Assembly (NCBI RefSeq): GCF_000003815.2
Contig: NC_049983.1
Location: 11,728,283 to 11,792,282, forward strand
DNA length: 64,000 bases
Origin: Branchiostoma floridae
Taxonomy: Eukaryota; Chordata; Leptocardii; Amphioxiformes; Branchiostomatidae
Direction of reading: 5' to 3'
Shown: piece after piece, positions 15,078 to 42,400 of the stretch
Numbering within the stretch: position 1 is the first letter of the stretch
Layout: each line of letters starts with the position of its first letter
The notes under the pieces: generated by a model
Database searches by the model: none
Told to the model about the DNA's origin: nothing
What the model saw: only the letters and a program-made list of their open reading frames with translations
Made by a program: the position numbers and the translations under genes

Positions 15078-16279
15078 GGCGAAAGCACAAGTTACTGTTT
15101 CACTCACACCGGCAAACACCACAACTGTAGGCTAACGCGGAAGTGAGGGAGGGCAACATGAGTTACCGCAAAACGGTAAGGTGTCGTTACACCGCAATGG
15201 GGGCACCTAGCAGCTTCCTCTCAAACTGCAGTTTTATTTCCCAATCGTGTCGTGTGTGATAAAGCATGAAAATCACACTGTCAGATAATATGCTAGGGTG
15301 AGGATGAAGTCACTCTTGGCGAAAATATTATGAGACATATTGCATAGTTGATAACTTCATTGTGTTACATCATGCTTCAAATGATTAAGCTTATGGAATA
15401 TTGCCAATACGTGAACAATGTAATAAATCTCTAATGTTGAAGTAGTGTTGTAGTCTAGCGATGGTACGGGAGGAGGTAACGTTAACGTTAGATGGGTGAA
15501 ACTTTGCCAACGTTATGAATTCTCTTTCTGAGTACAAATATAGAACGGGGCCCTATTAAAGATAAATAGAGAGGGTATTACATTGATGCAGTGTTTGTTT
15601 GACCTAATGTTACAATGTAAGCGAGCTGAAACAAAATCAATATGTTATATTGGAAATACATTGACACGAAGTTTAGAAGACGACAATGTAAATACACTCT
15701 CCCCCTATACTACCATCTGCTCTACCGATACCTTATAGGATAATCAGGTCTATCATCTTGACCTTTTGACCCATGACGTAATTGTTCGGTGTCTGGAGCT
15801 GAGAGCTGAGCCGCTGCGCTTCACCGAGGTTTTTATACCGCCGTATTTTACCCTACTGGATCTAGAATGGCGTAGAATGTACCAGTTTGTCGGCAGGGTT
15901 TGAAAACAGGACATTTGTCACGAAAAGTGGAGACTGGATCGCGGTTCACTATGCGGTAATCGAGGTGTAAGGAGTCGATTTATTTCACCTTGCCCCCCTC
16001 CCCCACATCTTGGCCCCTGATTATCTTCGTGACGTTGTTTGCTTTCTAAATAAGCGCCGTGCCGTCATCTTGCATCGGTATTGCTGTCCTGTCATCTCCC
16101 AAACATCAGAAGACATGATGATCATGCCATGTTGATAGTTATTCCTTCACGTACCATGAATAATTTGAGTTGAACGAGAACAGTTCAAAGGGGCCCCGCC
16201 CCCAAAACTAGGGCGTGTGTCAAAAGTCTGTCCGGTCCATAATGCCGGAAAGAAACAACTATAAACCTACCCAGTAAGC
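15078..16279. promoter_or_regulatory. Head-to-head intergenic region between LTA4H and RBSN
   Basis: 1.2 kb separating divergent start codons, so it should hold both promoters. No TATA box stands out. A palindromic run TAACGTTAACGTTA lies at about 15478-15491, and a pyrimidine-rich stretch at about 15987-16010. Transcription starts cannot be placed from sequence alone. Confidence 0.5.
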
Positions 16280-16282
16280 ATG

Positions 16283-19200
16283 ATGGCGACCAGTGACTCG
16301 GGGGACATACGAGAGGGCTTCCTGTGCCCGATCTGCATGAAAGACTTACAGACAGTGCAGCAGCTTCAGAACCATTTTGAGGAAGCTCACAACACAGAGG
16401 CAGATAAACAAGTGTTCCAGCATCTCAAGGGCTTGTTTGGGAGGGCCAAGAGTAAGCTGTTACGGCACGGGAGGGACCAGGATGGAGTCAGGGTGGACCG
16501 CGGGATGGCGGCCAGCCGGTCGGACAGCAGCAACCAGGTGGCTGTGCTCAGCACAGCGTACTATGTCGGTGGTGTGGATCCGACAATGTGGGAGCCACAA
16601 GACTTTGGTAAGAATGGGAACATCAGATGTGTACGTTAGTTTTTGGTTAGATGATGAAGGTATTTCAAGTGTGTACTGGAACTTTAGGTGGGGCACTGAT
16701 GCCATTATTATTGTAATTGCTTATCCAATGATAATGCAAACACATGCAAGAAAAAGGTGATAGACTGTCATGAAATGGCCATTCTCATTTGAGTGGTCAT
16801 TAATCTCACAAAGGAAGTAATTTTGCTGAATTAGTATTGTCTTGCATATGATTCTACTGAATCAAGATTCATTCAAGTCCTTCTCAATTGTTTACATAAT
16901 GACTCATACCAGATTGTCCCTTCTATGCTGAGTCATACTCATAGGTACATTAATCGTATATATTACTAGAAGCATGTTAAACTACGTCTGACATTCTTTC
17001 TCTCCCACTGACATTTCTATGCATGATTAGACATCTGTGTGCCTTCGAAGTTCCCCTCCCATCTACTGTATGGATGGTTGGTCTCTCCTGCCTTGATAAC
17101 CCTTATCTATATTCACATCCTGCTCTATCTCCTGGCTGCACTGCAGAGCCATCTACCTCTTAGTATGTGTACTACATCAAAGTAGCCCTATATAAGGTTA
17201 TAAGGACATCTAAAGAAATCCATGTTTTGTTGTTAGTAGTAATCTATGCAAACCACACTCGAAAATACTTCCTCAGTATCTTCCAATTTAATGTTATGAT
17301 GGGTTCAAGTACATGTAGGTCCTGTCGTAACATGAAGTTCAATGATCAGGAGTCAGTATGGCTACTGTATGGGAAAAGTTACATTGTACAATATAACTGG
17401 TGCTTGTGAAATTTGCTAAACGATTGTTCCAGCTTGGTAGTGTCAAAATGATATTGATAGAAAAGATTTAAGTTTACACTAGGATAGTTGTAAGTTACAA
17501 GAGTACAGGGTGACTACAGGCTAGGCTAGCCTGTCACATGTAAATGCCCTAGGGATATTATATCCATGTCCATGCTTGATTAGCATAATTTGCTGGCTTA
17601 CCCAGTTCTCATACAATTTTTCATCCAGTGACATGTCACATGGCATGTAATGGGAAATCGTGATTGGAAAATCTGCTTGCATACTACTTAGGTTTAGGCT
17701 ACACCATTTTGAATGTTTTTGGAGAACAGAAAAGTTTTCCTTGTCAAGTAAGTAGGCAAGTAACTTCATGAAGTGGCAAGGTAGCTTGCCTTGTCTCTCA
17801 GGGCATGTACCATATGCCATTCTGTTGTGAAGCTTCTTCTGTCTGATGCTATACATTTGTATTTGTAACACTTCTTCTCTTCCACCATGTTATAATCCAA
17901 TTGCTTTTTGCTATTGGCTCTTGAGAGATAGAGAGTAAGAAAGAAAAGTTTTGGTCATCCATCAGCCCAAGTGAATTAATTAATTGAATGACAATAAAAT
18001 GGAAAAGATTACAAGTCCTGCAGAACAAAACTGAAATGACAGAATATTCTATCATTGATCATTAGTAGCCAATTGTTTTGTCATGGTAACTGAAACATAG
18101 GAAATTAGAAAGGCAACATTTTTTGTCAAGCTTCTCGCACACAAAACTACCCAGTATATCATTAGGATCACTCTAAACAAGGATGTTGAAAAAAGGGACA
18201 TCAACCTCCTTGCTCCAAAGGATTTTGTGTGAGCATGAAATAACAACCTAGTTGTTTTTTGGACCAGGCCATTAACATAATTACACTATACATGTACCAT
18301 CAGGTTTGCCCTAGGCTATAGTATGGTGTGAGAGTAAGAAATTTCAGGTTTTGCTAGTGCAAACACAGTTCTAACCTCTGATTGGTTCCTTACACAAGAA
18401 GAAGAAGAAATATAAAATAATACACCAGCAAAAATAATGTGTATTTCACTTTTGGGTAAAATGTAAAAACATATTATTACACTTGGATGTCATAAAGCTC
18501 AAAAGCACTTTTAAACCAAAAATCCTTATCTATAACTAAGTATAAGTCTTATGAATTGTTAATGTCATATGAAAGGGGCAAAGTTTTTGCTGTTCTCTTC
18601 CATTTCCGATTGGTCTAAGTTAAGCCCACTGTCCTTGGCTATGATTGATATGGAAACAATTAATCAATCACAAAATTGCATGATACATTTCTCACCTCCA
18701 TTCTGTAATGGATTTGTGTGAGAATCACTTTTGTTCTCCAAATGAGCAGCAGAATGGACCAGAATCAGTGTCATTACAACCACTTACCCCTGAAAGGGTG
18801 TACAAATTGGCAATCATGGTGACAATCATGTCCTGATTTGTATTTCCATACTGGTACACGTCTGTCCCACCTGCCAGGACTTTGGGAAGGTCTGTCCCAG
18901 GGGACTTGCTTTGACTTTAGATCTGATCTACTGGCAGCTGATCTTGTACTTGTATGGTTGTACTTTTACTGTAGTTCTCAGATAATAGAAACTTAGATGG
19001 CAAATATCTTCTGGTAATAACCAACTGGATACCATGTACACTATTGGCTGTAATTTTTACTAGTTCTATACTTTCAGAACTCCAGTTAAGAGTGAAGGGT
19101 TTTCAGAAGTGGGTTCTCAAAGTTTCATTCTGAAGCACGAGACAATTCTGGCTAAGCCACTTAGATATAATTATATAAGTTATAAGGTCTCTACCAAAGA

Positions 19201-22200
19201 TTTGCATTCCACAGCAGTGTCTCTTGTGTGAGGATGTCTCTTGGAGAACATTACTGTACATCTTATTATCCAACATAACTTAGCTTCAATATCAGCATGT
19301 GTTTCAGTGATGTTTGCAAGTTGTACCAAGGCTCTCTTTCCTTGACAGTAAATGATCATTATGTGCCTGACTGTGTCAAGAAAGAAAGAAAGAAAGAAAG
19401 TGTAGAATTGAATACCTAGATACTTGTGTCTGACTTTTTGTGAGAACACAGAGAGAAGCTACATTTTTTTACCCTTGAAGTTCATTAGGATTTAAAAACT
19501 TTTTCACCTGTAATCCATAATTCTGATGGGGCTAATCAGCTTGCCAATATACATGATGTATGTAATGCATACCATTATCACATCACTTTGTACAGTTTAG
19601 CACAGGTGTAGCAGTAATCTGGACAAATGAATAGGACCTTGCACTTTGCTGATCTTCTATTCTCCAGGCCTTTTCAACACTGTAGGGATGCCTGCCATTA
19701 AAAACTCGTCAGTTTGGAGGTCTCATTTCCATTTACCATAATGACAGGAAGCACTTGTGTTTCATGTAATTGATAGATGTCATTTGGGTACTCACTAGAG
19801 AGTTTGACCAGGGATATAAGGGGTTGGCTGGAGAGGTGTTGTAGTCAGTGTGCGCTGGGTGCCGCCCAGGACAGTCGGGCTGCTGGTCGGTAGCAGTAAG
19901 CAGTATCCATGTGGAAGAGGCAGTGCAGGAGACAGAGAAGACTGACCACTATGAAGTCTGTAGGCTTCTCCAGCTTATGGCCTCATCCTGCCAGTGTACG
20001 GACGGTTTCAGATAAGTCAGTTGTCTTGTTTCTTCTTACCGTAACAGCCTTGCTTGCTGAAGTTCAAGTTGATTTTTGTTTCTTAGTGTTATGAGAAAGG
20101 GTTGTTACTGAGCTATTCTTCTTAGGCATTTGTTGTAAAAGACATTGTGGCAGGATTGCTAGTGTTTTTGTAGATGGTCAACACTCTAGCAAGAAAAGCC
20201 GCTTCTGTTTGAAATGACGAGAACCACAGTTGACATGTTGTAATGTAAAGCTTTGATCCAAGGGCTAAACAGAAGTGGTTGAAATCGTACCACCATAGGC
20301 AATGTTCCACCCATTAGGAAAAGGATGGTAACTGTTAGCACAGTGTCATCTTTTACTAGTTTTAGCAACTGTATGTTGGCCTAAATCTCAAATAGAAAGG
20401 CTTAAGTGAAAGTCCTGCTGTTTCCAGTGGTTTAGGGATTCTATAATTGCACCCTCTGTCATGCACTATGAAGAGTGGCTTGTGAACTTTGTGTGCCTGC
20501 TGGCTTGTCACTTCCAATACATGCTGTGGTCCCACCATCCCGTCCATGTAGAGAGAGTGACAGGTTGTCGGGCCTCAGACTTGTCTCCCAGTTATTTAGC
20601 TCTGGTAGGATCTGGTTGTAGTTGTACTAATAGTTAATACTGCGATGGTCTAGATCTGATGATATGGGAAAAGTTTCAACTGTTTTAAGTCTCTGTATAT
20701 ATGTACAGGCGTGTCTAACCCTCGAGTCATGATAAAGTAGGTAGTGAGTGAGTGATTTTTCTATCATGTGTGCATCTGGTCAACACAAGTCATACATAGC
20801 TCTGTTTGCATGTGTATTGTTTCACTTTTAGTGAGTAATTTGGCTATGTCTCTCCTAACGTGCAGACTTATACTAGTTATAGATATTGTAAATCCCCAAC
20901 AAAGGCATTTGCTTTTTAACATTAACGTCAAAGAGTTTGAGGGAAGCACAAACTCTCCAGAATGGAAAAACAAGATCTGCATCAAAACCAGGGGTGTCTC
21001 CAGAAATTTGCTCGTAACTAGGATGGACAAACGTTTTTTATCCCATCTGTTCAAAAACTTGACATATTGGCAAAATCTGCAAGCTTGAAATGACAGATTT
21101 AGAACCAAAAGTTTAAAACATGGCAACCAACCAAACAATGAGTGAGACAGAGAAAAAACTCAAAGCTGGAGACAGCACCAACCATTACACTAACAAATGC
21201 ACCATCTGTTAGTGATAGTATTACTGGTATACAGTTTAAAACAATCTGCATACATCTAACTGTCTTCCAAAGAAAGCTTTACTCTGATCTGTTTGCTCAA
21301 GCCAAGCTCTGGACCTGTCCTGAGGACTGGTTGGTTCTGTCTGTGCCTCCTCCCCTGCTGCTGACTGGGTGGGACTCTCTGCCTGTCAACGTCTCTGTAC
21401 AGTGAACATGAGGCATGTGTAGAGATTGTGTGACGGGTAGTGAGCCCCCAGCCCTTCTCCTCATCTCATCTGCTGCTTCTACTCATCTCACTACTGGTAA
21501 CAATGATACAAGGGGCGCTCGGATAACTCAGTACTGTTCTGTTTAACACTGACCACCTATGCTCTGATTATAACATTCTGAAACATTCTACAGCTGCTAA
21601 TCCATCCATACTGTCTCAAGTTAAGATCAAGTTTTGCATATACTGAGTAGTGCTACGCATTACTCTCAATGTAGTAGAAGAAGTGTGATCAAATTGAATG
21701 ATATTGCACATGTATAGACAGACAGTTGTTGTGACAATTCAAAAATGCTAGATAGTTAGATTAATGCAGAAGGTGTCATTTGTTCAATTGTTTAATACTC
21801 ATGAGGAAACTTGACAGGATAGTCACATAATCTACAAATACATGTCACATTTATAAATATAGGCTGTTATGGGCAGCTTACAACTTTTAACTATGCAATG
21901 TACGGCTCAATACATTTACTAGTACTATAAAACAAACAGTAAGAGTGTAAAGAAGGATTTTTCATGTCTGATGCGTAAGGACAATTTGTACATGTCTTTC
22001 TCATTTGAAGGTACCAGTCGCAGCCATATGGATAGCTTCAAGAAGATCCGCGATGCCAGAATCGACTTCTATGTCATCGAGATGAACAAACTGCTGATCA
22101 GACTGGAGAAGGTGGGAAACATTTCACAATGACTCACAACCACATAGCCTGATTAAATCTCGCTTTTAGCAGCCCGCCAAACATTTGCCGGCCCCCTAGA

Positions 22201-25200
22201 AGGAGAGGAAGGGCCAGTTACAGCCCTGGACAGCGGAGTTTGTGTTACACAGACTAACAATCACAGTTTTCACAGAATCAATTTTAGTTGTTTACACACA
22301 GGTGTGGACTTACCTGGAAAAGAGATGCATTGTCCTTTTGAAGAGGGACGTAAAGCTGGCAGTCCCCTGTGTGAGGGATTAAGTGATGAGGCTAAAATGT
22401 TACACCTCTACTATAAAAGAACCCAACACACTTATTGAGAAGAGTAAGAGTGATCTGGCAATGGCTGGCATGCCTGGGCAAAGCTGCAAACGAACAGTGC
22501 ACTGCACTGTTTTACCTGTACCTTATGACAGCAAAGTGTGGCCAGTCATGCTATGGCTGAACCCTACAAACTTCAGCTGGCAATGTCTGCTGGTATTTTC
22601 CTCAGGGAAGTCTCAGTGACTGAACCTTAATTGAAACAGATACATGTAATAACATGTTGAAACTGAATGACAAACTGATTACATTAGAATCAATTGCCAC
22701 TTTCCTGTACTGCAAAAGAAGGCATGACAAAGTTACCTCATTTTCTTTCTAATGAATTACTTTTCTTTCCCCTACAGTTGATAGCATTTGATAGGACAAA
22801 TCCAGATCCTGTCAAGAAAAAAGGTATGAAAGTGGATTAGTATCAAATTGAACAATTATATATTTTGTCATCTTATAATTGAATGCTGACAGGGCTATTA
22901 GACTACCAGTAATAGCCTGTACTACCAGTCATTATGTTATGCTGATAGCGTTTTTGGTGGTAAAACCCAAAGGAGATACGCAGTACAATAAAACTGGGAG
23001 AATTTGGTCAATTTGCCAGGGACAGGGTGGCATTCACAATGTGGGATGGCACATCTGCTCTTGGTATTTAAAAAATATCTTCTTGGTGATTGAAAAAGCT
23101 CTAGTAAGAACTGTTGTGTTTACATTGAATGTGTTCAGCTAGGAATAACTGTTTATGCTTCCCCATGCTCTTTATTCAAATTATTATAAATGTCAAAGAT
23201 AGCTTTCTGATTTTTATCAGTCATGTTGAAATCTAGTTATGACGATAATGTTTGTCCTAGCAAAGAACATAGCCCCAGCATTGATAAGTCACAGATCTGC
23301 AGAATATAACAAAAGTCGCTCTTATGTTTATGAAGGTTAGACATCCAGGTAAACAATATTCTGATACAATTCAATCTCTACAACTGGATAAAAACAGAGA
23401 TTTACATGTACTTCCAGACTTTTTGAGTTTCAAAAGTTGCACTTCTTCCCCTTCCCCTAGAGTTTGAGATTGGTCTGGTCCCCTGGGCGCCTGATGACGC
23501 TGTGCCGTACTGCCCCACCTGTGGGGAGAAGTTTAACCTGTCCCGTCGGCGGCACCACTGTCGGCTGTGTGGGGGCATCATGTGTAACAGGTGCTCCCAG
23601 TTCCTCACACCTGACTTCACAGGTTAGACATACCTGTCTATTCTTTATTGTTATTCATTAATCCGGCTGACAGACAGCCAAGTTTCTGTCTAACTAGCCA
23701 ATGACTTGACAGGTTACCGTGTTACACCATTCTTCATTATCTTTTATTCCATTCTATCATTTCAGCAATCATAGATTCATACAACCAAGGTTGATTAAGT
23801 CTACTGTTAAATGAGATATCTTTTGGCCATGTGAAACTGATGTATGTTTTTTTGCTGTGCCCTAGGCCTTTTCTCATGAACAAATGACTATGTGGTGGGT
23901 TCTTTACATACTTAAGGCTTTACTGTACATATTCAAATGCTCTCCACTGGACCACAATTCAACGCTCTCTGAAAAGGCTCTATACTGAATATGTTGATAT
24001 GTTGATGTTAAACAAGCCATGCTAAACATGATAGCTGTTTAGCATGGTCTTAGTCATTAAAGTCAACGTTTCCCCTGCTGTTTTCCCCCAAAGCAAAGCT
24101 GGTGAACAAGGCTGGTAACCTACCGGTACAGACCATCCGGGGGGAGGAGAAGGGCCACCGGCGTCAGGGCAGCGCAGGAACACGTGCCATGGAGAGCCTG
24201 CGCTCGCTGGTGGGCGAGGTTGTTGGGGAGGAGCCGCGGGAGGACGGCACCAGGACATGTCAGGACTGCATGGCCGTGATGGGGCGCAGGGAGAGACAGA
24301 TTCAGGAGAAAACTACCAAACCCATCATTGTACAGCTGTATGAGGTGAGTGTGGTTTGAGATCTGTTGTTCCATTTGTAGTTAAGCCTGCTAAGAACACT
24401 TGGGACAGATAAAATGGTCTATTTGGCCAGGTGGATACTATATAGACAGGATTCTTAATTCTTGTGTAGTCATAAGGGACTTGTTCAAAGGATGGGTAAG
24501 ACACTATTACTTATAGTTCACAGTTGAAAAAAGTGTTTTTCTTACCAACTCTTTTGTTTTGTGGTAGAAACTACGCATGCTGATGGATAAAGTGGAGGCC
24601 ATGTGTCCAGAGTACATCAAAATGGCTGAATCTCTCAAGTAAGTGTGAACAGCAGTGCTAGTCTTAGTACTTAGATTTGTGCACTTTTGATATTGCATAT
24701 ACATGTATAAAAAAGCTGTTCATACCAAGATTTGCAAATCCCGATTCAGCCAGTCATAGGATTGATACCGATACTAATTGCCAAATCAACTCTTGAGGTG
24801 GATTTGAAATGCAAGTAGATTCAGACTGATCATACCAGGGTTCACCAGTTATCCTGTATAATCCTGGGTCGCCACATTAGTGGTGAAAGTGTACTGAAAC
24901 ATTGGTAGTGGAATAATGATTGCTGACTTTCCGCTTTCTCGCCTTAGTGCTGGTGAGACCAGCTACAACCTAGAACATGCCAACAACGTTCGCAGTCAGC
25001 TGATGAGATGTTACGAGGCCATTGACACCATTGGGTAGGTGTTCTGTAGTGTTGCACTGGAGGGAGAGGTGAGGTTAGGGTACCAATCTGATTCATTGCT
25101 TCTTGGATTAAAAAACAATGCTTGATGGAAAAATGAGCATCAAAAGAGAGTCTGAGTAGAAAGTTTGTAATGTAGAACATGCAGTACCAGGAACGATTTG

Positions 25201-25973
25201 TTTGATCCTTTTGATTCTTTCATGAAAAACTTAAATTGGCCAGTAGTTGAGGTCAGAAAAGAAGTAACGATCAGACAAAACATATCAAAGATACAGGTTA
25301 CATGATTGAAGTCAATTATGGTTATTATAGTCAAGCTTCCTTCTATCCCTCTATCTCAACCTCTTGCTGACATCATATCATATGGCCACACGTTCACCTC
25401 TTAAATATGCCGTATTCCTTCAGGAAGAAGATAGCCACTATGGGGGCGAGTGGTGCAGAACAACAGCTGAGTCCCCAGGCCATCCGTCTCCAGCAGGGCA
25501 TCCGGAAACACTGCACCCTGTTCATCCAGGATAACGTCTTCGGCCTGCCCTCCCTCCCCAGCGAGGACCAGCTCCGCAAGCTTCAGGAGCAGCGGCGGTT
25601 AGAGATCGAGCAGCGGCTGGCGTTAGAGCGTCAGGCTGCACTAGAAGCCGAGGAGAGACGGAGAAGCGAAGAGCAGAGAAAACGGTCTTCCCCGGAGAAG
25701 GACAGAAAAGGAGCGGCGGCGGCAACTGTAGATACAACAAACAGAGATCGGACAGAAAGTATAGGAAAGGGTTGGACCCCCGCAGTAGATTCCAGTAGTG
25801 TAGCCACGACAGAGACAGACCCGATGCTGCAGCAGATGGACATCATCAGGAGTTTTGTAGACCAGGCCAGGGCAGCGGGGCGGCTGGACGAGGTGGAAAT
25901 GTTAGAGGCTAACCTGAGAGAGCTTCAGCAGGAGTACTGGAGACAACACAGGAGACAGGCCTATCAGGAGTAG
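16283..25973 (+). CDS. RBSN: Rabenosyn-5 (FYVE-finger Rab4/Rab5 effector), short form
   Basis: Endosomal PI3P-binding protein that tethers and recycles early endosomes. Coding exons: 16283-16607, 22011-22111, 22778-22823, 23461-23622, 24094-24344, 24568-24638, 24948-25034, 25424-25973; total 1593 nt, 530 aa, phases consistent. N-terminal C2H2 finger (Cys15, Cys18, His31, His36), VDPTMWEPQDFG, then a FYVE finger (about residues 160-250) with the PI3P-binding RRRHHCR motif and the last Cys pair CQDC in exon 5. Exon 8 gives a charged coiled coil (about 440-470) and one Rab-binding hairpin (DPMLQQMDIIRSFVDQA). The protein stops right after it. Human rabenosyn (784 aa) continues with NPF repeats and a second Rab-binding helix, absent here. 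ATG 16283 matches the human start; ATG 16280 just before it would add one Met. A longer isoform cannot be excluded. Confidence 0.92.
16608..22010 (+). other. RBSN intron 1 (5.4 kb)
   Basis: Long first intron with no convincing exon. Short open frames on both strands are not supported by splice sites or recognisable similarity. A GC-richer stretch near 19800-20000 could be an alternative first exon, but nothing proves it. Confidence 0.5.
19378..19400. repeat. (GAAA)n microsatellite
   Basis: Five to six uninterrupted GAAA units in RBSN intron 1. Confidence 0.9.
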
Positions 25974-26512
25974 GATAGGACACAATCAGTGATGCAAACA
26001 TGCTTTCTTATCACCCACCTGAGTTGTGTTAGGGAGAGGGACTAAGACTGGACACAGTTGTTTGCTACAGCAATGTAGCATCAATTGTATCGCAAACTCT
26101 GCACAATTCCTTCTGCTGAGACCATGATTTAATTAACCTACTTATTGTCATGTTAACCTACTTCTGAGATCCTTGTAACCCTACGAATACGTACAGAAAG
26201 CCATATGGTACATAGAAGTAGCTAGGACTTCAGGGAATGCTTTATTGAGTTGCATGGCACAACCTTTTTTTACACTATGCATTCAATGCATTTGCTGTTT
26301 TTCAGTTTTAATATGTCTTTCAGCAATTTTTGTTTTAAGTGTAAATGTATTAATAGCTGTATCTGCATACCAGCAATTTTGAAACTTACTTTCATAAGTT
26401 GGAATTCTCAAGTCACAAAGGTTGAGGTGCTCTGAAGATGTAATATTTTCAAGGAGAGGCACACTTTTTTTTACCGATAAAAGCTTGGAGTGCGCTTGCA
26501 GAGGCTTAAAGG

Positions 26513-26957
26513 TGCATGCTGGTACATGTATTAGCAGAACTGCATGATGGTAGAAAGAGATGCATGATGGTAGATTATTTGCATGAGTTATAACGTAAAG
26601 TACAGAGTTTGCATGGTGCATGTAATAGGTGCATGCTGTAAGGTAAGAGGAACTGCATGTTGGATATTGGACAGGAGCATGACCAAGGGAAGCAGGCTAA
26701 ATACATTTTTGTAGGAGACGTGCATGCTAGATAATGATTTGTGGAAAGAAGTGCATGGTTGATAGTCTGTTTTGGAAGATGCATGCTGGAATAGCAGGAC
26801 AAGTGCATGCTGGAATCATGAATAGCCCGTAGTTAGGAAATTGCATGATGGGAAATTTTGTCGCATGCTGCATGAATATATGCTAGTTGACAATGTATGT
26901 TCAGAATCACTGCATGACTTTGCATGTTTTATAAGAATGCATGTACTGATATGCATG
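26513..26957 (+). promoter_or_regulatory. Cluster of 18 TGCATG motifs in presumed RBSN 3'UTR
   Basis: TGCATG starts at 26513, 26541, 26561, 26580, 26610, 26617, 26630, 26654, 26721, 26752, 26780, 26804, 26842, 26869, 26911, 26921, 26939 and 26952, with one more at 26251 and near-matches at 26678 and 26863. The complement CATGCA does not occur in the cluster. (U)GCAUG is the binding word of RBFOX RNA-binding proteins. The segment lies 540 nt past the RBSN stop and ahead of the AATAAA at 28073, so it is probably transcribed in the sense orientation. Spacing is irregular (7-67 nt), which speaks against a simple tandem repeat, although some units share a TGCATGCTGG or TGCATGATGG extension. Confidence 0.7.
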
Positions 26958-28072
26958 AAGTTAGCAAGTCAAAATTTAGGAATTTGGTTAAAGCTATGTA
27001 CAATGTACGATGTACAAGCACTGCATTGTGGGATAGAGTTGCTATCTGAGAAATCACCGCACTACTAAAAATGACAACCAGAGTTTCTGATATGATAGTA
27101 GGTTCAAAGCTCACCTTTTGTCAATCATAACTGGTATTGTTAGACCCACGTGCTTGTATCATTGAAACCGAAGACAATCCTATCTAAATGCTGTGCCTAT
27201 CCACATCTTCAGAGCATCTCTTGCCAGCAGAAGAAGAATTTCAAGTCATGAAGTGAAAACGACTTATATTCTTCTGGTAACTATACATATTACCTTTCCT
27301 TTACGTAAACGAAAAACTACTGAACAAGTAAGCTAGAAGAAAAATGTAACAAGGAGGTAAAGATGAATGATGAATTTTAAATGTCTTGAGGTAATAATTC
27401 AATGTTTTCCAAGCCTTTAATATGCGAATAAGCAAATGCCATATACTGACTAGGTTGCCTCCTGGTGTACAAAAGTATTTGATCACAATATTACACACAT
27501 CTGTTGACAACAGAGTTGCAAATATGAGAGATATGGAGTATTCGGTTCAGTAGCCTGGCAGACATGCGGAAGATGTATCATTCCAATTAAAAAGTTGTTC
27601 CTGATCATGTAAGAATCCATGTTTTTATGCTTTATATGGTCCTTGGCTGAAGGACTTACTTTTATCTAGAGAACATGTATACTTCAGTACATTTCGTACA
27701 GTTGCCTGGATCATAAGTCATCCTGTCTTTGTGGGCACCTAAGTCAGCAGAGGAAATATCTTTGATGTAACCTTACACCAATTCTTCATGTGGAAACAAC
27801 TCATTAAACTGCAAGGAATTGTACATTGTGTGTTTTAAGATTATTTTCTGTGTCTAAATATTTTACTACATTACTCATGTTTCTTGTAGTCAAAGAGGTT
27901 AAACTATTACCTATAACTTAGTTTTGTTAAGAAAGTGATCGAGGGGAACTGGCTTTAATACCTAACATGACCTTACATGTACCTTTAAACCTTTAAGTTG
28001 CACCTAGCACCTGTCCATTTCAAGGAGGTTCAACCTCCTTGCCCATTCCTATTCTGCCTCTTTCTTTGACGC

Positions 28073-28078
28073 AATAAA
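28073..28078 (+). promoter_or_regulatory. RBSN: Candidate RBSN poly(A) signal
   Basis: AATAAA 2.1 kb after the RBSN stop; I noticed none earlier. If used, the 3'UTR is long and includes the TGCATG cluster. A short perfect palindrome (AAGGAGGTT, one-base gap, AACCTCCTT; 28022-28040) lies just before it. Confidence 0.4.
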
Positions 28079-29986
28079 ATTCATGACATACAACGGTAAA
28101 AATGAGTGTAGTCATATCAAATCAGTTGCCGTCAATGTCCATCATCACTGCAGATCTGTAGAACCTCCGACAGCTGACTCTTCACATGTTAAGGCAGTGA
28201 CGATTACAACACGTGTCTGTGGGGACACCTGGCGACCAACGTAGCTCGTGCAGTAACATTGGTATTTTATTTGCTGCAGTAATAGCATTGGCTGCTAGGA
28301 AGCGCTTTTGAACCGTTGAACATTTGACCATATTATGCCAAGCTTAAACTTTGCCAAGATGGAGGTGTATTACACACCAGTTATAACTCATAACTTGCTC
28401 AGTACTACAAGGCTCACACGGGGGATTAGGCATTTGACCAATTTAGATATATCGTTGAAGAAACTAATGATAAACGAAATAAATTTCGTGTGCGCGCATG
28501 AATTTTCACAGAAAGTAATGTCAGTTTGTTACATCATCTCCTGAAACATGCAAAAGCCATGCCAACCCTCTGGTAGCAAAAATCCCCTGGCAAAACATTT
28601 TCGCTATAATATATTTCCAGCGTAGTCAGTTTGCTAGAGACTACACGTCACATACCCTCAGAGAGCCTAATTTGACGCTCCCTAGACTTAAAGTGGCCAA
28701 CCACAAATCTAGCGTTATCTACCAAAGGAGCGGCTTTTATTCCCGAAACTAGGCTTTTCGCAAATGTTAAAAAAGAGGAATTCTCGTAAGGGGTTAACAA
28801 AGTCTGAAATAAATTTATTTGTAGTAAGTTATACTTCATGTTACGGCTACCAAAGACATTGTTCTTATGGAAGAAAATCCGCGCCAATAATGTATTTTTT
28901 CCATTTCTCTAAGCGATGAAACTATAACGCTATTGAAAATTTTAAGCGATTTTCCTTACGATTCAGCTCTGTGTAACTGACATATGTTAAGATATCAGGA
29001 GTCAAGACATACGTCCGTTTGTCCAAAATCCACTCTAGTTCTGGCGGCTGGTGGCATATGCGCATGGTGTAACTCACGGGCCAATGACATGTGGTTCTAC
29101 ACGTGCCTTATGATGAAATACTCTGTTCAAATACAAAATTTGAATGTGTCAGTATGCAGTTTTTACCATCGAGCATTGTATCCGAGCACTGTTATATACA
29201 ATCCAAATGTCATTTCCGGGGATGGCAAACAAACGGGGTTTGAACCGAACCTGCATCATATTTGCGTTTATCTTCAGAGGCTATAGCTAATGTCCCATAT
29301 GCTGACTGATAATGTTAAAGTATGCCCCGATTATATACTATAACTAGAAGGAAGGCTTTTCATTTGGGAGTAAACATTAGATGAAATTGAGCGTTTTGTT
29401 AACTGTACTGGCAACTAACACCTTGGACGTTTATCACAAATGGACGAGTAAATCGTTCACACACTGTTAGTACAACTACAAATGTACCCGCACAACATAT
29501 GTCTCATTAACCACTGTTGCAAACATGTGAATACGGCATAAGCGGATACTACTGTCAATAATTGTACTGGATTAGGCTGGAGATAAAAGTAGTATCACAG
29601 GACGAGGCTAGGTTAAAGCAAATGTTTGCTATTTCAATAACCACCAGATGCAGACTCTCTCACACCGGTCATCCGTACTCTGCGATATGTTTGAGTAAAA
29701 AAGTATATTTTCATGGCAAAATCGTTAATAAAATCATGAAATTCATTCGTACATCTTCATTTCACAATTGGTATTTGCTATCAAATTCAAGAGGCTTGAA
29801 CAAGAAATTGTTGTGTTCCCAACCATTAGCCTTATTGTTATCTAATATCAACAAGCAAATGACTGACTAATATGTATCGTTTATGCAAAATAGGCAGGAG
29901 TATTGCATAATGATTAAGCTATAAATAGCACGTATCGGTCTCGTCTTCGCCGAATTAGCCTTCTGTTCTCCATTAGTCCTGTAACG
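28079..29986. other. Intergenic region, RBSN to hydrolase gene
   Basis: 1.9 kb with only short open frames lacking start context, splice support or recognisable similarity. It presumably contains the promoter of the downstream hydrolase gene; I could not place one. Confidence 0.4.
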
Positions 29987-32900
29987 ATGAAGCTCCCCTC
30001 CCCAGCCCTGGTGCTCCTCCTGTGCGGCCTGCCCCACGCCCTGGGGACGTCCTGCAAACTGCTCCGGCCCACCAACACGGACGGGACGGAGGTCGGCCTC
30101 ATCATCGTGCCTGGAGCCTACATCAAAGGCACGGCCTACCAGCCACTGGCGCAGACCATCCAGGACCTCTCCCCACACAAGTGAGTACGCTCTAGCAGTA
30201 ACATATGTTCTCTTTTATTTGTTAACGTTATACCCCTGTCACATTTGGCGAGCTTGAAATCGATCGGACGACGATTCTGCGGCAATCGCCCGAGCCTCGC
30301 TTATAATAATAACTTTATTACACAACAATTGTACAAGGTACAAAGTATGGCTAAATATGTGACAGGGACAGTTTTCAGGTGAAAATACGCACAACCCATT
30401 GTCGATCTTAAATATGGCCGATCTTCCATCGATACGCCCGAAGATCATGGATAATGTGACAGGGGTATTAACAAACTAACAAAATCATCCCCTCCCTCAC
30501 CCCGTAGGCTGTGGGTCGGTTTGACGGACGGGTACGTGACAGATCTGCCCAACCCGCTGGAACTGTCGTCCGCCATCCAGTCTTGTAAACAGGCCATGGT
30601 GCAGGGTGGGATGAAAACAGACGTCTTCTTCATCGGCGCCCATTCGCTTGGAGGTACATTTGTATAACATATTTGATATCAGTCAGGTTTTCTGTCAGGG
30701 GAGGTAAGTACAGTCGACACCAGTGATTTTCAATGCAGCGCTGAGAAGCGATATTGTTCGACTGCCCAGTGTCACTTGTGTACAATAAGGTAGCGCTGGT
30801 GAACGTTTGGTTTTGAACTCTGAAAATAATGTACGGTTAGATGATGAAAGAAAGTCGGGTGTTGAGAAAACGGATGAAAGAGATGACAAAGAATTTGAGT
30901 TATTGACTGAATGCTTATTAGTGCCTTTGAATCAGTAATACTAGGAAGTTTTCCCTGTAAAGTCTCATTAGTAAAGTTTTGAAGCCTAAGTGTATTTTTA
31001 GGTGAGCGCGGTTTAATTTTAAGTCGATATATTTCCCCGCAGGTACCTTCCTGCAGATGTACCTGTCTGACAACCCCCGCCAGGCGAAGGGGATGCTGCT
31101 GTGGGGGTCCTACCTGACCAACTCCTACCCCATGGCTACCTTCTCCGTACCCGTCCTCACTCTGAACGGGGATCTAGACGGTCTGGTCAGACTGGGTTAC
31201 TCCTGGAAAAAGTACAGGTCAGTGACCCTAACTAAAAGCGACATTAGACAAAACGACCCCGTGCAACAATGGAGTCCTCAGGCACAACGAGCTAGCTCAT
31301 TGGCTGGTCACTTGATTGAATCAGTCAGGTACACCTGGGAGACCTAACAATGCCAGGTGGCTAAAAGTGACTGTCGCATTAGTCCGCCGGGGTAGCTGGA
31401 TAATCACATCAATTGTGCAGATTTGTCTAAAGATAAAAAAAATGTACATTTTTGCTCAAAGAATTGCATAAATGTCCAAATTAGTGATGTTCATTATTAG
31501 CATATGCCGAAAATGTGAATGAGTTCCTATGGGCGTTATTATAAGCTTCTCCATTCCATAGATAAGGTATTTTGTTTTAATACCAGAGCATAGACGCCCA
31601 AAATATACATGTTTGGTCTTGAAATGGCAAAAAACCGAGGTGCCTCCGCAGCTATACGTGATTAGAAAACATTCAACTATTCAAATTTCACAATATTCCA
31701 TCTATGACGGCGGACAATACCTAATCCCTCCCTGTATTGTCAAATTGTGTCAAAGTCATGTTCTCAAATTGACCGTTTGCTTCCCTGCCACACGTCCCAC
31801 CCTATTCACTCACAGGGAGTTCGTTGCAATAGACGCGAACTTCTCCAGCCCCGCTGTGTACCAGAAACCGGTAGTTGTTGTGCCTGGACTTAACCACGGA
31901 CACGTGAGTACGACCGATATATTGCATTAATTCGTGGGGGCCATTACTGAGTAAATACTATTAACGTTATATAAAGTATGATATAAAAGACATCAAACAA
32001 CACAAGACGTAAAGAGGATGAAGTCCTGCGCATTATTTGTGAAAGCTCCTTGGTATATATTTCTATTTTTCGTTTCCACAAACAGTCCTGCCGGGCCCCG
32101 ATTTGGAAATGTGACGTTAGCCTAAACAGTGCCTACCTAAGGGTGCTGCACTAGAGATCTCTCAAACACTATCAGTCTGTTTTCAATGTGAAAGATGGAT
32201 ACATGTTACTGGAACCCACAGATTTTACACCTATTGCTTTCGCCATATATCTAAGCCACGAAATACCTATTCCTTGTGGAACTATGACAGTCTGAGATGT
32301 CTTCACGCCCTTGACTCCAGATCGCGTCCGGAGCCATGCCGTCCAACGTGCTGAACATGGACCTGCCAGCCGAGATGACCATGGAGCAGGCGCACAGACT
32401 GATAGCCAACTCCTCTGTAAACTTCATGGTAGCCAACAGTCCCAACAACACCGCATTCAGACAGATGGAGGCGGTTAAACAGCTACGGACTCAAATGTAA
32501 ACAATACCGTTACTTTAGTATAAGACCCAAGTTCACTGATCTTCCGATTGTATCAAATCTTAAGTCCGTGTGTCTCAAGCCCTGCATCTCCAGAGTCAAT
32601 CACAAGTGTGCTTAGCTTGGAAAACACCTCAATCTCGATCTTCTCAACTCTAAAGTGCCTTTACTCCCGCATAACTTATTCCGATTTGGCCGCTTTGTCA
32701 TCTTCGTTCCCGGAAGGAATATGGCACAATATGCTTTGCCTCGTCGTTCCTCTTCACCTCTGCTGCAAATCCGCTTGGTCTCCGCCTTTCTGCCCTCATG
32801 AAAGCAAGTCCGGAGAAATTAACTTCAGCGCTCTGATTATCCATTGACGTTATTTGTGTTCTCTTTTGGGTACAGGAATGTCACAGGCAGGATCCTGGCT

Positions 32901-34590
32901 CCTTTCGACATCGTCTCCGCACTTGACTTTGACGGCCAGACGTCTCCCTGGGTCACCACCGCTCAGGAGAGCATCATCGGAGCCCCGGCCGAGCTGCAGA
33001 ACAAGCTCACTGTCAAGACGGAAGTCATGGACAACATCCTAGATCTGGGGGACCACAAACCGTTCGTCGAGAAGGACGGCGACATGGTTACTGTCCAGAC
33101 CTACACCAAGTTCGACTATCCGCTGAACCCCATCGACAACTCGGAGCCGTACGTCTCCACAAACATGTTGTCCACTAAGATGAAGAGGCAGTCTGCGGTT
33201 ACCAAGGAGCTGGGACCGGGACACTACAACAGTCCCATCACGTGTAAGGACTTGAACCAGGTGCGTGTGTGTTCTTCAGACAGTGACGACCAAAGTGAAC
33301 GTGTCTTAAAAGGACTTTAATAGCCACTCTCAAAAAGTACGAACAAACCAATCACCGTAATATTACAAAGTTTCCAGATGTCTTCTCAAATATTATTAAA
33401 GGACAGAACATACTTTTCACTGCAACACATAGCCCCCACCAGGCCTATTCTTATAAGGGTATGGACTGTAGAATTCGGCAAAAAAAGGAATAATAGGGCA
33501 GGACATTCAGTCCGTGATAGCCAACCCTATCACAGATGTGAGTCTAGTTAGTCACTAGACTAGTCAACCACACACTTTGTAGGATGATTAACGAACTGAT
33601 GTAACGTTACGTTTGCCAAATAGCGATAACTCAAGCGTCTGGATATGGTTTGGGAAACGGTCAAACGTTTCAGATAACATCCGTTATTGTTTGTCAGTGA
33701 TCATGACACTGACGTGATGTCCTTTTGTTTCCAGATGGCTTTCCAGATTGCCTCCACCGCCGCGTCCACCGTTGCCATGGCCAGGTATCAGCAGAAAGGT
33801 CACCAGCTGACGTTCGCTGATGACGAGATGAAGAGTACGGGAAGTGGCTGGCTGTCGGGAGCGCTTACGTTCGAGGACCAGGGCGATGGAACGGTTAAGG
33901 TGGGTGTTGCTCAGTATAAAATATTTTCAGTACACTGAATTACTTCCACAGGTTGGTAAGTCATCTGAAAATAAAATAAAAGTTCTTTTTCTCGCAGCCA
34001 CACTTTACTCTCTTGGCAGAGTTCAATATGCCTTAATGAGGAAGATAACAAGTCTTCAAAGTGAAAAGAATTGGTTGTAAGAAAAACTACAATTTCAGAT
34101 GTTCTCAACAGCTGTAGCTTTTATTGTCAGTAATCACAACAAAATGCAGTCAAACCTGTATATACACAAGAACCACCTGGCCAATGTGAGCACTGATTGG
34201 TGATATGATAGTTTTACCATTTACACAAGCAAAAGAAGTCTATTTAGTGACCACCTGTTAACATGACAAGATTTTATCAGTCCGTAGTGGTCTTCTGGGG
34301 CAGTTTTTTTTCAGATTCAATGCATCTGAAAAGCTGTAGAAAGGGAGAGCTATATATTTTGTCAGTCCTTAGTGGTCTTTTTGGGCAGCTTTTTTTCTCA
34401 GATTCAATGCATCTACCACAAAGCGAGAGCTATAACGTATCGTACCAATGCCCTACAGGTGACTAGCCCTGCCCTGGTGACCAGTCTGGACGCGTGGTTC
34501 GGGTTTGACGGGATGCACTACTGCAAGCTGCTCTCTCCGTTCCGTGCTCTGGAGTACATCTACACCGACAGCCTTCGCCATGTATCATAA
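29987..34590 (+). CDS. Secreted alpha/beta-hydrolase-like protein, function unknown
   Basis: Coding exons: 29987-30180, 30508-30653, 31043-31217, 31816-31903, 32321-32496, 32876-33260, 33735-33899, 34459-34590; total 1461 nt, 486 aa, phases consistent. N-terminus is a classic signal peptide (PALVLLLCGLPHALG). Residues about 30-210 look like an alpha/beta-hydrolase core: VGLIIVPGAYIKG (strand plus oxyanion-type turn), nucleophile elbow GAHSLGG with Ser111, acid in LNGDLDG (Asp157 or Asp159), and His199 in PGLNHGH. The C-terminal half (about 210-486) matches nothing I recognise; it has DFDGQTSPW, a KFDYPLNP stretch, and a dibasic MKRQ site near the middle. I cannot name the substrate. A lipase, esterase or amidase role is possible. 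Confidence 0.85.
30231..30467. mobile_element. 237-bp MITE with TTA target duplication
   Basis: Perfect 15-bp terminal inverted repeats TACCCCTGTCACATT (30231-30245, complement 30453-30467), flanked by TTA on both sides (30228-30230, 30468-30470). A 3-bp TWA duplication is characteristic of PIF/Harbinger elements. Non-coding; sits in intron 1 of the hydrolase gene. Confidence 0.8.
34147..34257. mobile_element. Partial copy of the CAGTCAAACCTGTA element
   Basis: Begins CAGTCAAACCTGTATA and has 'accacctg' blocks like the elements at 2716 and 37737. No matching right inverted end is seen and the left flank is TG rather than TA, so it is a decayed or truncated copy. In intron 7 of the hydrolase gene. 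Confidence 0.5.
34278..34437. repeat. Two-copy tandem duplication, 85-bp period
   Basis: Copies begin at 34278 and 34363 and share CAGTCC-TAGTGGTCTT, GGGCAG, a T run and CAGATTCAATGCATCT. It lies directly before the last hydrolase exon. Confidence 0.8.
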
Positions 34591-39400: not shown

Positions 39401-42400
39401 CTACATAACAATAGTTGCCTTTAAAATCTGATCAGTGATCACCTATTCTATCTTGTATTAAATCTATCAATCTGCATATATTGGGTACGATATTCCATGC
39501 TTTGAAAAATCACAATGCTGTAACATCTAGCATACACATACATGTACAAAATGGCAACACTACATATCAAACGATGGAAATGAGAATAACTTTCAAAGTT
39601 TCAGACATGTCTGTTTTAGCATAACCCATGGAATATTTTTGAGAGGAGATACCTTAATACATTAGAGATGATAAAATTAGCAAAGTTTAAGTATATACCT
39701 CACCTGTTAAAGTCAAAGAGGTACTGGGCCACGATCAATTCGTTTCTCATGGTCTTAGCTTCAGCCTCCTTTACCCTCTCCACTATCCAGTTCTCACACT
39801 GTTGGGTGCCACGGTCGTACGGACAGGTGTCTGGGAACACCTTACTCTCCAGCCTCTGCATCAGGCTGTCCAGCGCCGTGCTGAACGGGTCGTGTGGCTT
39901 GCGAGGCTGCCCCGACAGAATGTGTATGGCATCTGGGGTGAACACGTGCCTTCTCAGTTCATCTTTGTTCTCCTTCACGTGGTCAACGCGAGAAGCGTCG
40001 AGGCTGGCGGACAGCTCGATCAGGTGCTGTAGAGCATTCCCCGACCCGCCCACACCAAGGGATGCTGTCAAGCCGATAACCTGGGGTAAACTCTTCTGGT
40101 GGGGATTGGCCAGTGCAAGCTCAGCCTTCTTCAGGAGATAGTAGCGCATGATCTGGTTGTACGGATGGTCGAGTGTTGTGTGATGACATTCGTCAAGGAT
40201 GAGCTGATCGAGGTCAGTGAGATCGAGACTTCCTGCCTTCAGCGAGTTGACCACAATCTGTGCAGTCAGCATCACTATGTCTCTTTTCTTCAGTGTTTCA
40301 CTGAGCTCTTCGGTGTCTCCGATTTCTTGAACAACGCCCAGAGGGAAGAGCATCTCAAACTGGTCCTTCTGCTGCTTGGTGAGGTTTCTGATGGGCACGA
40401 TGAACAAGGCCTTGAAGGGGAGATCTTTTCTCTTTGCCTCACTCCAGGCTCTCTCGGCTACTAATGCACTGACCAGGGTCTTACCGCTGCCTGTAGCACA
40501 GGTGATGATGGCATTCTTCCCCAGGAGAGCAGATCTGGCCAACTCCTTCTGGTATTCTCTCAATGCTACTTTTCCAGAATACTGTCCTTCCGGCATGTCT
40601 TCTTGTGCCACATCTTGTTGGATTGGACTTGCTCTCCTAGCAGTATCAGAGTGAGGAGAAGATGTGGGCCTTACTTTGGGTCTGACTGCTGGGCCTGTCT
40701 CCAGTTCTTCAGGCTTGGTGGGCGAGTCAACTTCCAGGTCTTCTGACTTGCCACTGCTGAGGATAGGAGATTGGCCAATGTTGGTACTGATGCTGCTTGG
40801 GCTCTGGTAAGTGATATTGTGGACTGTCCTATACCCCTGGGGAGATGCAGCTTCATTGACATCCTGTAGGTTGCTCGGGGAATCTTCTACTACATCTTCA
40901 TCTAGGTGTCGACTAGGGGAAGACTTGGTGGGGGTGCTGCTTTTGTTGTTGTTAGAGTGTTGTTGTGGTGGTGTTCTTAGCAGTATTCCAGCCTGTTTTG
41001 GTGAGGTCATGGCTTGTCCCTGTTCCCACTGTTTGTTCACCTCCATCAGGTACTGATCGTCTCCTTCATTTGGCGCTGCCCCCTGGTGGATTCTAGCAGG
41101 AGCTGCAGATACCTGTGCTGCCTGGAGCTGTTGCTGTAACTCCATGTGACTGGTGGTCTTGTCCATGCTGCCTACTGTGTCTGGAAGGTGGTGCTGATCT
41201 AACTGCTCTTGAATCTCTGCTACACTTGTCATCTTTTCTTCATTCTGGATCTCTTCCTGTTCATGCTTCATCCTGTGTAAAGCATTTGTAGCATCGTGAG
41301 CATGCTGATGGAGCTCGGTTAATGTGGGGGCTTTGTCAAGACTACCCACGGTGTCAGGGCTATGGAACTGTTTGGGAGATGTGGGGATACCAGGTGTACC
41401 TACAGGCTTGCTTCTTGGGGTTTCAGCAGTAAGCTCCCACTGCTGTCTCATTTCCTGCATGGTTGTCTGCTTACCTTCCTCTTGCGACTGCGCTTCCCCA
41501 TGGCATCGGGGATGCTTTGGAGGGGTTTGGTAAGATGCAGGAAAGTTGGGAGCACACTTTGGGATGGTGCTGTCTGGTGGAGTGGGAGGGCTGGCAGTGA
41601 GACCATGATGTGGGGCACTCCTTCCTGGGGCTGACAGGCCGGTATTTTGTTGAGGACTCGGTGGCGAATCAGCATGCTGGGGTGATGATATTGGTGGCAG
41701 TGCTACAGGTGGGACATTTCCTAGATTTTGGAAAGGTGCCAATTTCTGACCAGCAGCATTTGGGGCATTACGATTTGTTGTGAGGTTTGCCGAAGCTTGT
41801 TGTGTTTGCTGTCCTGTTGAAGCATCAGGAACCTGTTGAAACTGGTTTGCTGAGGAGGGCTGAACTGGTGGTGTTTGCTGTTGTATGTTTTGCTCTGTTA
41901 CAATAGAGAATAAAAGTTAGTTGGGTCTGCCTAAACACCTCAAATGACCTCAAACAACCTCAAATTGCTTTAATATGTAATGCACATGATAATGAAGCAA
42001 TGACATTGTGCGGCACTCTGGATACATTGTTTATGCATCTATGAATAATAAAAACGCAGTGGATACATTGTTTATGCATTTATGAATATAATAAAAATGC
42101 AGCAAGTCTGAAGTATTTACCAGTTATTTGGAGATAATGTCAGTCGGTTTCAAGATCAAAGCCATTTGAGAAAAAAACACTTAGCTTACAAGCATTTTAA
42201 ATTGACAATTACAATGAATTGTGCTATGCTATATCTAAATGTATGAGCCAATAGCATCCACAGTTTATTGTACTGTCATCTGTGGGCTGAAGAACTTGTA
42301 TCGAGAACTATCCCATGAAGACTTCTTACACAGATGATCTAACATGGCGACGACCAAAGTTAGTCTTTCTCTCCTAGGCCCACTTTTTGTAACATTTACC

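Follow-up and report, generated by a model that had tools for sequence, protein, structure and literature searches.

The RBSN locus and its predicted 3' untranslated region

The window, meaning the whole 64,000-nucleotide stretch of lancelet DNA analyzed here (G000:C5:11728283-11792282 of a 513-Mb assembly), carries a rabenosyn gene, RBSN, on its + strand. The identity of this gene, named in the original prediction, was borne out by domain searches, which located a Pfam FYVE zinc finger (E 8.9e-17) in an open frame at 23427..23627 and a Pfam Rbsn domain (E 2.7e-16) in the frame at 25371..25973, apparently the last coding exon, although the exon start is not fixed. This C-terminal frame also matches the rabenosyn chains 1z0k, 1yzm, and 1z0j of the PDB; the five PDB matches that rank above 1z0k bear the names of engineered proteins. 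The frame closes with a TAG stop codon at 25971-25973. The C-terminal part of vertebrate rabenosyn features NPF tripeptides, and none is encoded in the + frames of 15000-34000, so nothing in that region points to an additional C-terminal portion of the protein; the TAG codon is therefore probably the true end of RBSN.

Downstream of the stop codon, neither AATAAA nor ATTAAA occurs before an ATTAAA at 27586..27591, the first candidate poly(A) signal on the + strand in a hexamer scan, which is followed by ATTAAA at 27803 and AATAAA at 28073. Weaker variants do occur in the interval (GATAAA at 26476 and AATACA at 26700). The putative RBSN 3' untranslated region (3'UTR) was accordingly drawn at 25974..27605, with an approximate end ~15–20 nt past the first of the AATAAA/ATTAAA signals. 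The cluster of TGCATG words that is the subject of this study begins 540 nt past the stop codon. Since the stop precedes it and no AATAAA or ATTAAA comes between, the cluster probably lies in the RBSN 3'UTR, where it had been placed originally; its position after the stop codon stood up, and its membership in the mRNA is putative.

Other features of the window are more remote. Upstream of the FYVE frame, the + strand encodes two microRNA hairpins of the lancelet families mir-4865 and mir-4860, at 20493-20576 and 21374-21447. They are the only two Rfam matches at the gathering threshold, so that the cluster was not assigned to any known RNA family, and a tRNA was likewise rejected; neither hairpin contains CATGCA, which eliminates them as readers of TGCATG. 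At 10466-14609, a pair of long frames that carry reverse transcriptase domains (Pfam RVT_1) probably represents a retroelement, and a frame of 737 residues at 39700-41916 on the - strand bears the helicase domains ResIII and DEAD. A 72-nt tandem repeat of 14.2 copies with 96% match spans 56046-57069; a 317-codon open frame at 56024-56977 overlaps it.

A one-stranded group of TGCATG words

A recount confirmed that the + strand of 26513-26957, a segment of 445 nt, holds 18 copies of TGCATG, beginning at 26513, 26541, 26561, 26580, 26610, 26617, 26630, 26654, and 26721 (words 1–9) and at 26752, 26780, 26804, 26842, 26869, 26911, 26921, 26938, and 26952 (words 10–18). Their spacing has a median of 24 nt and ranges from 7 to 67 nt. 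The segment contains 20 GCATG pentamers in all, and one additional TGCATG (26251..26256, + strand) precedes the cluster on the 3' side of the RBSN stop codon. Two smaller + strand groups, with five GCATG each, were seen elsewhere in the window, at 51737-51945 and 53147-53441.

The original estimate that ~0.1 copy would arise by chance proved to be of the right order. The rate of TGCATG on both strands of the remaining window predicts 0.15 copies in the segment, and Markov models of orders 1–4, trained on the window minus the segment, predict 0.18–0.20, with a maximum of 4 among 5000 simulated segments per order. These values rule out a chance origin. Even models trained on the segment itself fall short of the observed 18, with a mean of 1.8 and a maximum of 9 for order 1 and a mean of 6.6 and a maximum of 15 for order 2. 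The enrichment is confined to the cluster and is not window-wide: TGCATG occurs 62 times on both strands of the whole window, against 53.8 expected, and 16 of 100 shuffles gave counts as high. A scan of all hexamers found that, besides TGCATG, only the microsatellite word CACACA reaches 18 copies per 445 nt anywhere in the window. The strand specificity of the cluster had been argued from the absence of the complement CATGCA. That absence is real, but it means little by itself because just 0.12 copies are expected; the signal is the 18:0 orientation, which holds.

Copy number and genome-wide density

Whether the segment is one copy of a dispersed repeat element, with many similar copies at other loci, had been set beforehand as an observation that would count against the prediction. 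A genome similarity search, of a kind that passes over simple repeats and very common words, returned a single match at E <= 0.001 for window positions 26440-27050 in the 513-Mb genome, namely the segment itself. Further copies within the window were also sought by blastn, and no convincing match was obtained. The cluster is thus a real, single-copy, one-stranded group of 18 Rbfox words.

The genome-wide count of TGCATG density, which had been suggested as a check, qualified the observation. Sets of three TGCATG words separated by gaps of 1–30 nt occur at 958 + 1039 places in the genome, well above the 252 + 414 of a reversed control, and many of the triplet matches listed (C1 to ~24.3 Mb) are tandem or TG repeats by inspection. 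Twenty C1 stretches were sampled from these listed matches, chosen by eye to be mostly dispersed-looking, with L051 and L052 as repeat controls. Fourteen of them lack a Tandem Repeats Finder (TRF) row at score 40, and these hold 3–5 words per 445 nt. Ten or more words per 445 nt are found in four stretches (L034, 12; L036, 12; L051, 24; L052, 10), all of which contain a TRF array, while the remaining two, L042 and L045, hold 6 and 3. The 18-nt array of L051 thus surpasses the 18 words of the cluster. Raw TGCATG density is consequently not unique to the RBSN segment; what distinguishes it is density without a detectable tandem array, which is unusual within this small, hand-picked sample of 20 because the array-free stretches hold only 3–5 words. 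Tandem repeats rich in TGCATG abound in this genome, so that word density says little unless hidden arrays are tested for as well.

An Rbfox gene on C171

A search with the RNA recognition motif (RRM) of human RBFOX1 yielded 11 genome matches. Three are grouped on G000:C171 and are 96% (residues 3–25), 82% (residues 42–75), and 70% (residues 23–49, a match that overruns splice edges) identical to the human protein; the other eight show 26–39% identity. Translation of the C171 exons gave stretches of 40 and 31 residues. The animal thus appears to have an Rbfox protein with a closely similar RRM, whose sequence suggests the same binding specificity. A survey of titles and the opening lines of abstracts for amphioxus or Branchiostoma together with Rbfox or its word brought up nothing that looked relevant.

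The last RRM exon on C171 is 93 nt long and is surrounded by TGCATG. Five copies lie within 190 nt upstream of it on the + strand (C171 249874, 249977, 250008, 250027, and 250052), the fifth of which directly adjoins the acceptor AG, and a sixth, at 250155, overlies the donor. No other + strand copy occurs in 3.7 kb of C171; CATGCA is present four times there, two of these overlapping TGCATG. The exon presumably corresponds to the mammalian 93-nt exon. By analogy with vertebrates, it is likely to be a conserved autoregulatory exon (G000:C171:249874-250160). In mammals, the -93 Rbfox2 isoform, which arises by skipping of RRM exons, is probably promoted by RBFOX3, according to PMC5577181, where Damianov and Black (2010) is cited. 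The arrangement offers independent, circumstantial support for the view that the Rbfox of this animal reads TGCATG. The original identification of UGCAUG as an RBFOX binding word is thereby matched with a candidate reader in the same genome, one whose own RRM exon is ringed by the word.

A proposed multivalent Rbfox-binding region in the RBSN transcript

On balance, the cluster is best regarded as a multivalent (homotypic) Rbfox-binding region in the RBSN transcript that would change rabenosyn output. The Rbfox protein would bind simultaneously at numerous (U)GCAUG words near the 3' end of the RBSN transcript, and RBSN mRNA would carry several Rbfox molecules in cells that express Rbfox. The presence of multiple Rbfox molecules could then alter the amount of rabenosyn via mRNA stability, translation, or recruitment to granules. 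Cytoplasmic Rbfox1 in vertebrate neurons was reportedly described by Lee in 2016. The words, their single orientation, their retention compared with the flanks, the single genomic copy, and the Rbfox gene are observations; inclusion of the segment in the mRNA, Rbfox binding, and the change in expression are the inferred parts of this proposal. The sponge role and the neuron or muscle specificity suggested originally are hypothetical extensions of it. A bolder form of the proposal, in our estimate rather unlikely, holds that the cluster might belong to the densest class of non-tandem Rbfox arrays, with words held in place as the spacers turn over, and that it may act multivalently as a granule seed on an mRNA of endosomal traffic or by way of an Rbfox-dependent 3'UTR intron that turns RBSN off through nonsense-mediated decay (NMD). 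If the cluster is bound, it would be a naturally occurring example of a multivalent Rbfox target, in a species for which one well-matched RRM locus was found, would allow many sites to be tested against one (by dose response, granule formation, or titration), and would extend control by clustered (U)GCAUG outside vertebrates and outside introns.

Structure predictions count against this proposal. An accessible, single-stranded motif is helpful, without being strictly defining, for such a region, and the cluster words have a predicted mean unpaired probability of 0.02, compared with 0.096 for all cluster hexamers. Values as high were obtained in 29 of 60 controls with shuffled spacers and 23 of 60 with foreign spacers, while permuted hexamers were more open (51 of 60 as high). 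A structural role based on pairing was rejected, as CATGCA, with which the words could pair perfectly, does not occur in the segment and their predicted pairing does not exceed that seen with shuffled spacers. Among other short motifs, UAG is mildly raised in the cluster (12 vs. 5.9, a level reached by 3.5% of window segments), and YCAY is scarce (2 vs. 7.5).

Retention of the words and the minisatellite alternative

The main rival to the Rbfox reading is that the cluster is an old, degraded short-unit minisatellite with an TGCATGNTGG core, in which the words owe their persistence to chance or to recent duplication nearby and have no function. This explanation is somewhat unlikely in our judgment. 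It draws attention to an extension of the word: 7 of the 18 words continue as TGCATGNTGG (NTGG), and NTGG follows no other TGCATG on either strand of the window. The extension lies outside the Rbfox word. Moreover, TGCATGNTGG or TGCATGNTGGGA is common to minisatellites of this genome with units of 16, 19, 21, 28, 30, 38, and 40 nt, and pairs of TGCATGNTGG no more than 30 nt apart number 66 + 107 genome-wide, against 1 + 1 in the reversed control, with four of the pairs in this cluster. Many of the other pairs listed belong to minisatellites, most prominently one with a 40-nt unit at C5:28.25-28.98 Mb. The sampled stretch L034, with its 12 words, is an irregular array of the TGCATGNTGG type whose core can still be detected by TRF. 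The 40-nt minisatellite, which has the core TGCATGATGGGA, recurs in both orientations over ~0.7 Mb (G000:C5:28249848-28977029), and other unit types with the core TGCATGNTGGGA were observed on C3, C6, and C7.

Within the segment itself, when the words are aligned on GCATG, the flank at +5..+12 is more alike than chance allows (2.27 bits vs. 0.96, sd 0.28; 1 of 1000 permutations as high), which favors a degraded array, while the other three flanks tested show no excess likeness (406, 236, and 952 of 1000 permutations as high). Three two-word modules, A, B, and C, which were picked after inspection, align with one another better than they do once their spacers are shuffled (0, 0, and 3 of 500 as high). 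Alignments confined to the spacers are weak: the best of five pairs is equaled by 21 of 1000 shuffles, and the other four by 94, 158, 402, and 972. Some local duplication within the cluster is likely. TRF at score 30 detects no array inside 26513-26957, its one short row beginning past the cluster at 26996, and the segment shows no head-to-tail periodic copies by either TRF or spacer similarity. A clear long-period repeat was likewise rejected; the best of 252 autocorrelation lags, at 101 nt, reaches 0.37, an indecisive excess over the mean of 0.28 (sd 0.027), and the spacer alignments are weak.

Direct fits of the known minisatellite units to the cluster point both ways. Units of 19, 28, and 40 nt fit better than in almost every control with fully shuffled spacers (equaled in 0, 1, and 8 of 150), and wraparound alignment of the 40-, 28-, and 19-nt units gives a similar result (1, 0, and 0 of 40). 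When each word and its next eight bases are kept together, however, the 19- and 40-nt fits become ordinary (37 and 54 of 150) and the 28-nt fit borderline (5 of 150). With the tail of the unit permuted, 49, 13, and 75 of 150 are as high for the 19-, 28-, and 40-nt units, and units of 30, 38, 21, and 18 nt do not fit (10, 37, 17, and 17 of 40 shuffles as high). The core is the only part clearly common to the cluster and the arrays, with the 28-nt unit as a borderline case; the cluster may descend from such a core.

The degree to which the words have been retained also counts against simple decay of an array. Besides the 18 intact words, the cluster holds only four one-mismatch forms on its + strand, with 2.7 expected by chance. 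Two of these are first-base variants that keep GCATG (AGCATG at 26676..26681 and CGCATG at 26862..26867), and the other two do not (TACATG at 26523 and TGTATG at 26894). The consensus frequency of the +5..+12 flank is 0.51. The one-mismatch to intact ratio of 4:18 is 0.22 (0.07 after correction for chance), far below the 5.7 simulated at the retention nearest to the decay of the flank, a comparison to be read in light of the fact that the sites were ascertained via intact words. The words, in short, look maintained while the spacers are mostly unlike one another.

Splicing and DNA-level alternatives

A second alternative retains Rbfox as the reader and assigns it to splicing. A strong 5' splice-site match, AAG/GTAAGA, lies on the + strand at 26640..26648, and Rbfox bound past the donor at 26643 might promote a 3'UTR intron (e.g., 26643-27212) or an extra exon. 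NMD of the RBSN mRNA would be expected where Rbfox is high because the splice junction would lie so far past the stop codon. By approximate splice-site matrices, the donor ranks 15th of 3934 + strand GT sites and third within 22000-28500; a fair acceptor places the first exon base at 27213, and another places it at 26306. Eleven of the 18 words follow the donor, and a precedent is available in the promotion of NMD exons in Rbfox2 by Rbfox3 (PMC3126832). The remaining seven words precede the donor, however, and at 15 such sites per 64 kb, ~0.4 donors of this quality are expected by chance in a region of this size, so that the site is treated as a lead. Splicing control of this kind appears quite improbable.

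It is very unlikely that the cluster functions as DNA, that is, as a homotypic enhancer or promoter element of a neighboring gene bound by a factor that reads TGCATGNTGG, such as one related to ZNF143/Staf: the NTGG continuations noted above and the abundance of TGCATGATGGGA (519 in the genome vs. 17 in the reversed control, minisatellite copies included) would be in keeping with such a factor, but the ZNF143/Staf motif has TGGGA after its GCATG core, and NTGGGA follows just 1 of the 18 words, no clear longer motif is common to 20 sampled genomic TGCATGATGGGA sites, and all 18 words share a single orientation, which is unusual for DNA-level site clusters.

Comparison with known Rbfox systems

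The proposed multivalent Rbfox region of RBSN can be set beside several systems in which the word is known to act. In mammals, clusters with four or more (T)GCATG per 500 nt number 21,005 in mouse and 19,977 in human; they are mostly intronic and in part bound, and such (U)GCAUG clusters bind Rbfox1 and are active (PMC12435732). With 20 GCATG in 445 nt, the RBSN segment shares this crowding of many words into ~500 nt with the mammalian clusters, two of which, with 9 and 7 motifs, carry Rbfox1 eCLIP peaks (PMC12435732). The resemblance ends with their surroundings. More than 75% of the mammalian clusters are deep intronic, and they are rich in hnRNP M/H motifs and in TG/CA repeats (PMC12435732), whereas the RBSN cluster lies past a stop codon and displays no enrichment of the hnRNP M/H (LASR partner) motifs (hnRNP M pentamers, 7 vs. 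a window mean of 7.3; hnRNP H, 0 vs. 2.0), whose enrichment is typical of mammalian clusters without defining them. The same source describes four to six motifs as sufficient and clusters with more as rare and without added splicing activity (PMC12435732). By analogy, saturation at four to six sites would count against an Rbfox reading of 18 words.

The cluster also differs from the TGCATGNTGG minisatellites of its own genome, which have the same extended core and fixed, TRF-found periods; the cluster segment has none. A further caution comes from TrkB.T1, whose regulation by Rbfox1 appears to be independent of its six 3'UTR GCATG (from the review PMC10913846), and function is for this reason not to be assumed from motifs.

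The probably autoregulated 93-nt exon of the Rbfox gene offers a parallel within the animal itself, as its TGCATG words are also grouped on the sense strand; its six words are intronic and beside an exon, compared with the 18 of the cluster. Among invertebrates, the nematode RBFOX ortholog ASD-1 prefers UGCAUG (PMC12990809). Cytoplasmic control of mRNA through GCAUG in the 3'UTR, the arrangement proposed for RBSN, is described for worm and fly in PMC13286378: worm SPN-4 acts via 3'UTR GCAUG on targets that include lin-41 and chs-1, leading to mRNA clearance, and Drosophila Rbfox1 represses pumilio via GCAUG, as cited there. Because these published 3'UTR sites repress in one case and drive clearance in the other, the direction of any effect on rabenosyn cannot be told from them. 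The targets lin-41 and chs-1 carry a single GCAUG each (PMC13286378), compared with the 20 of the RBSN cluster in what is probably its 3'UTR.
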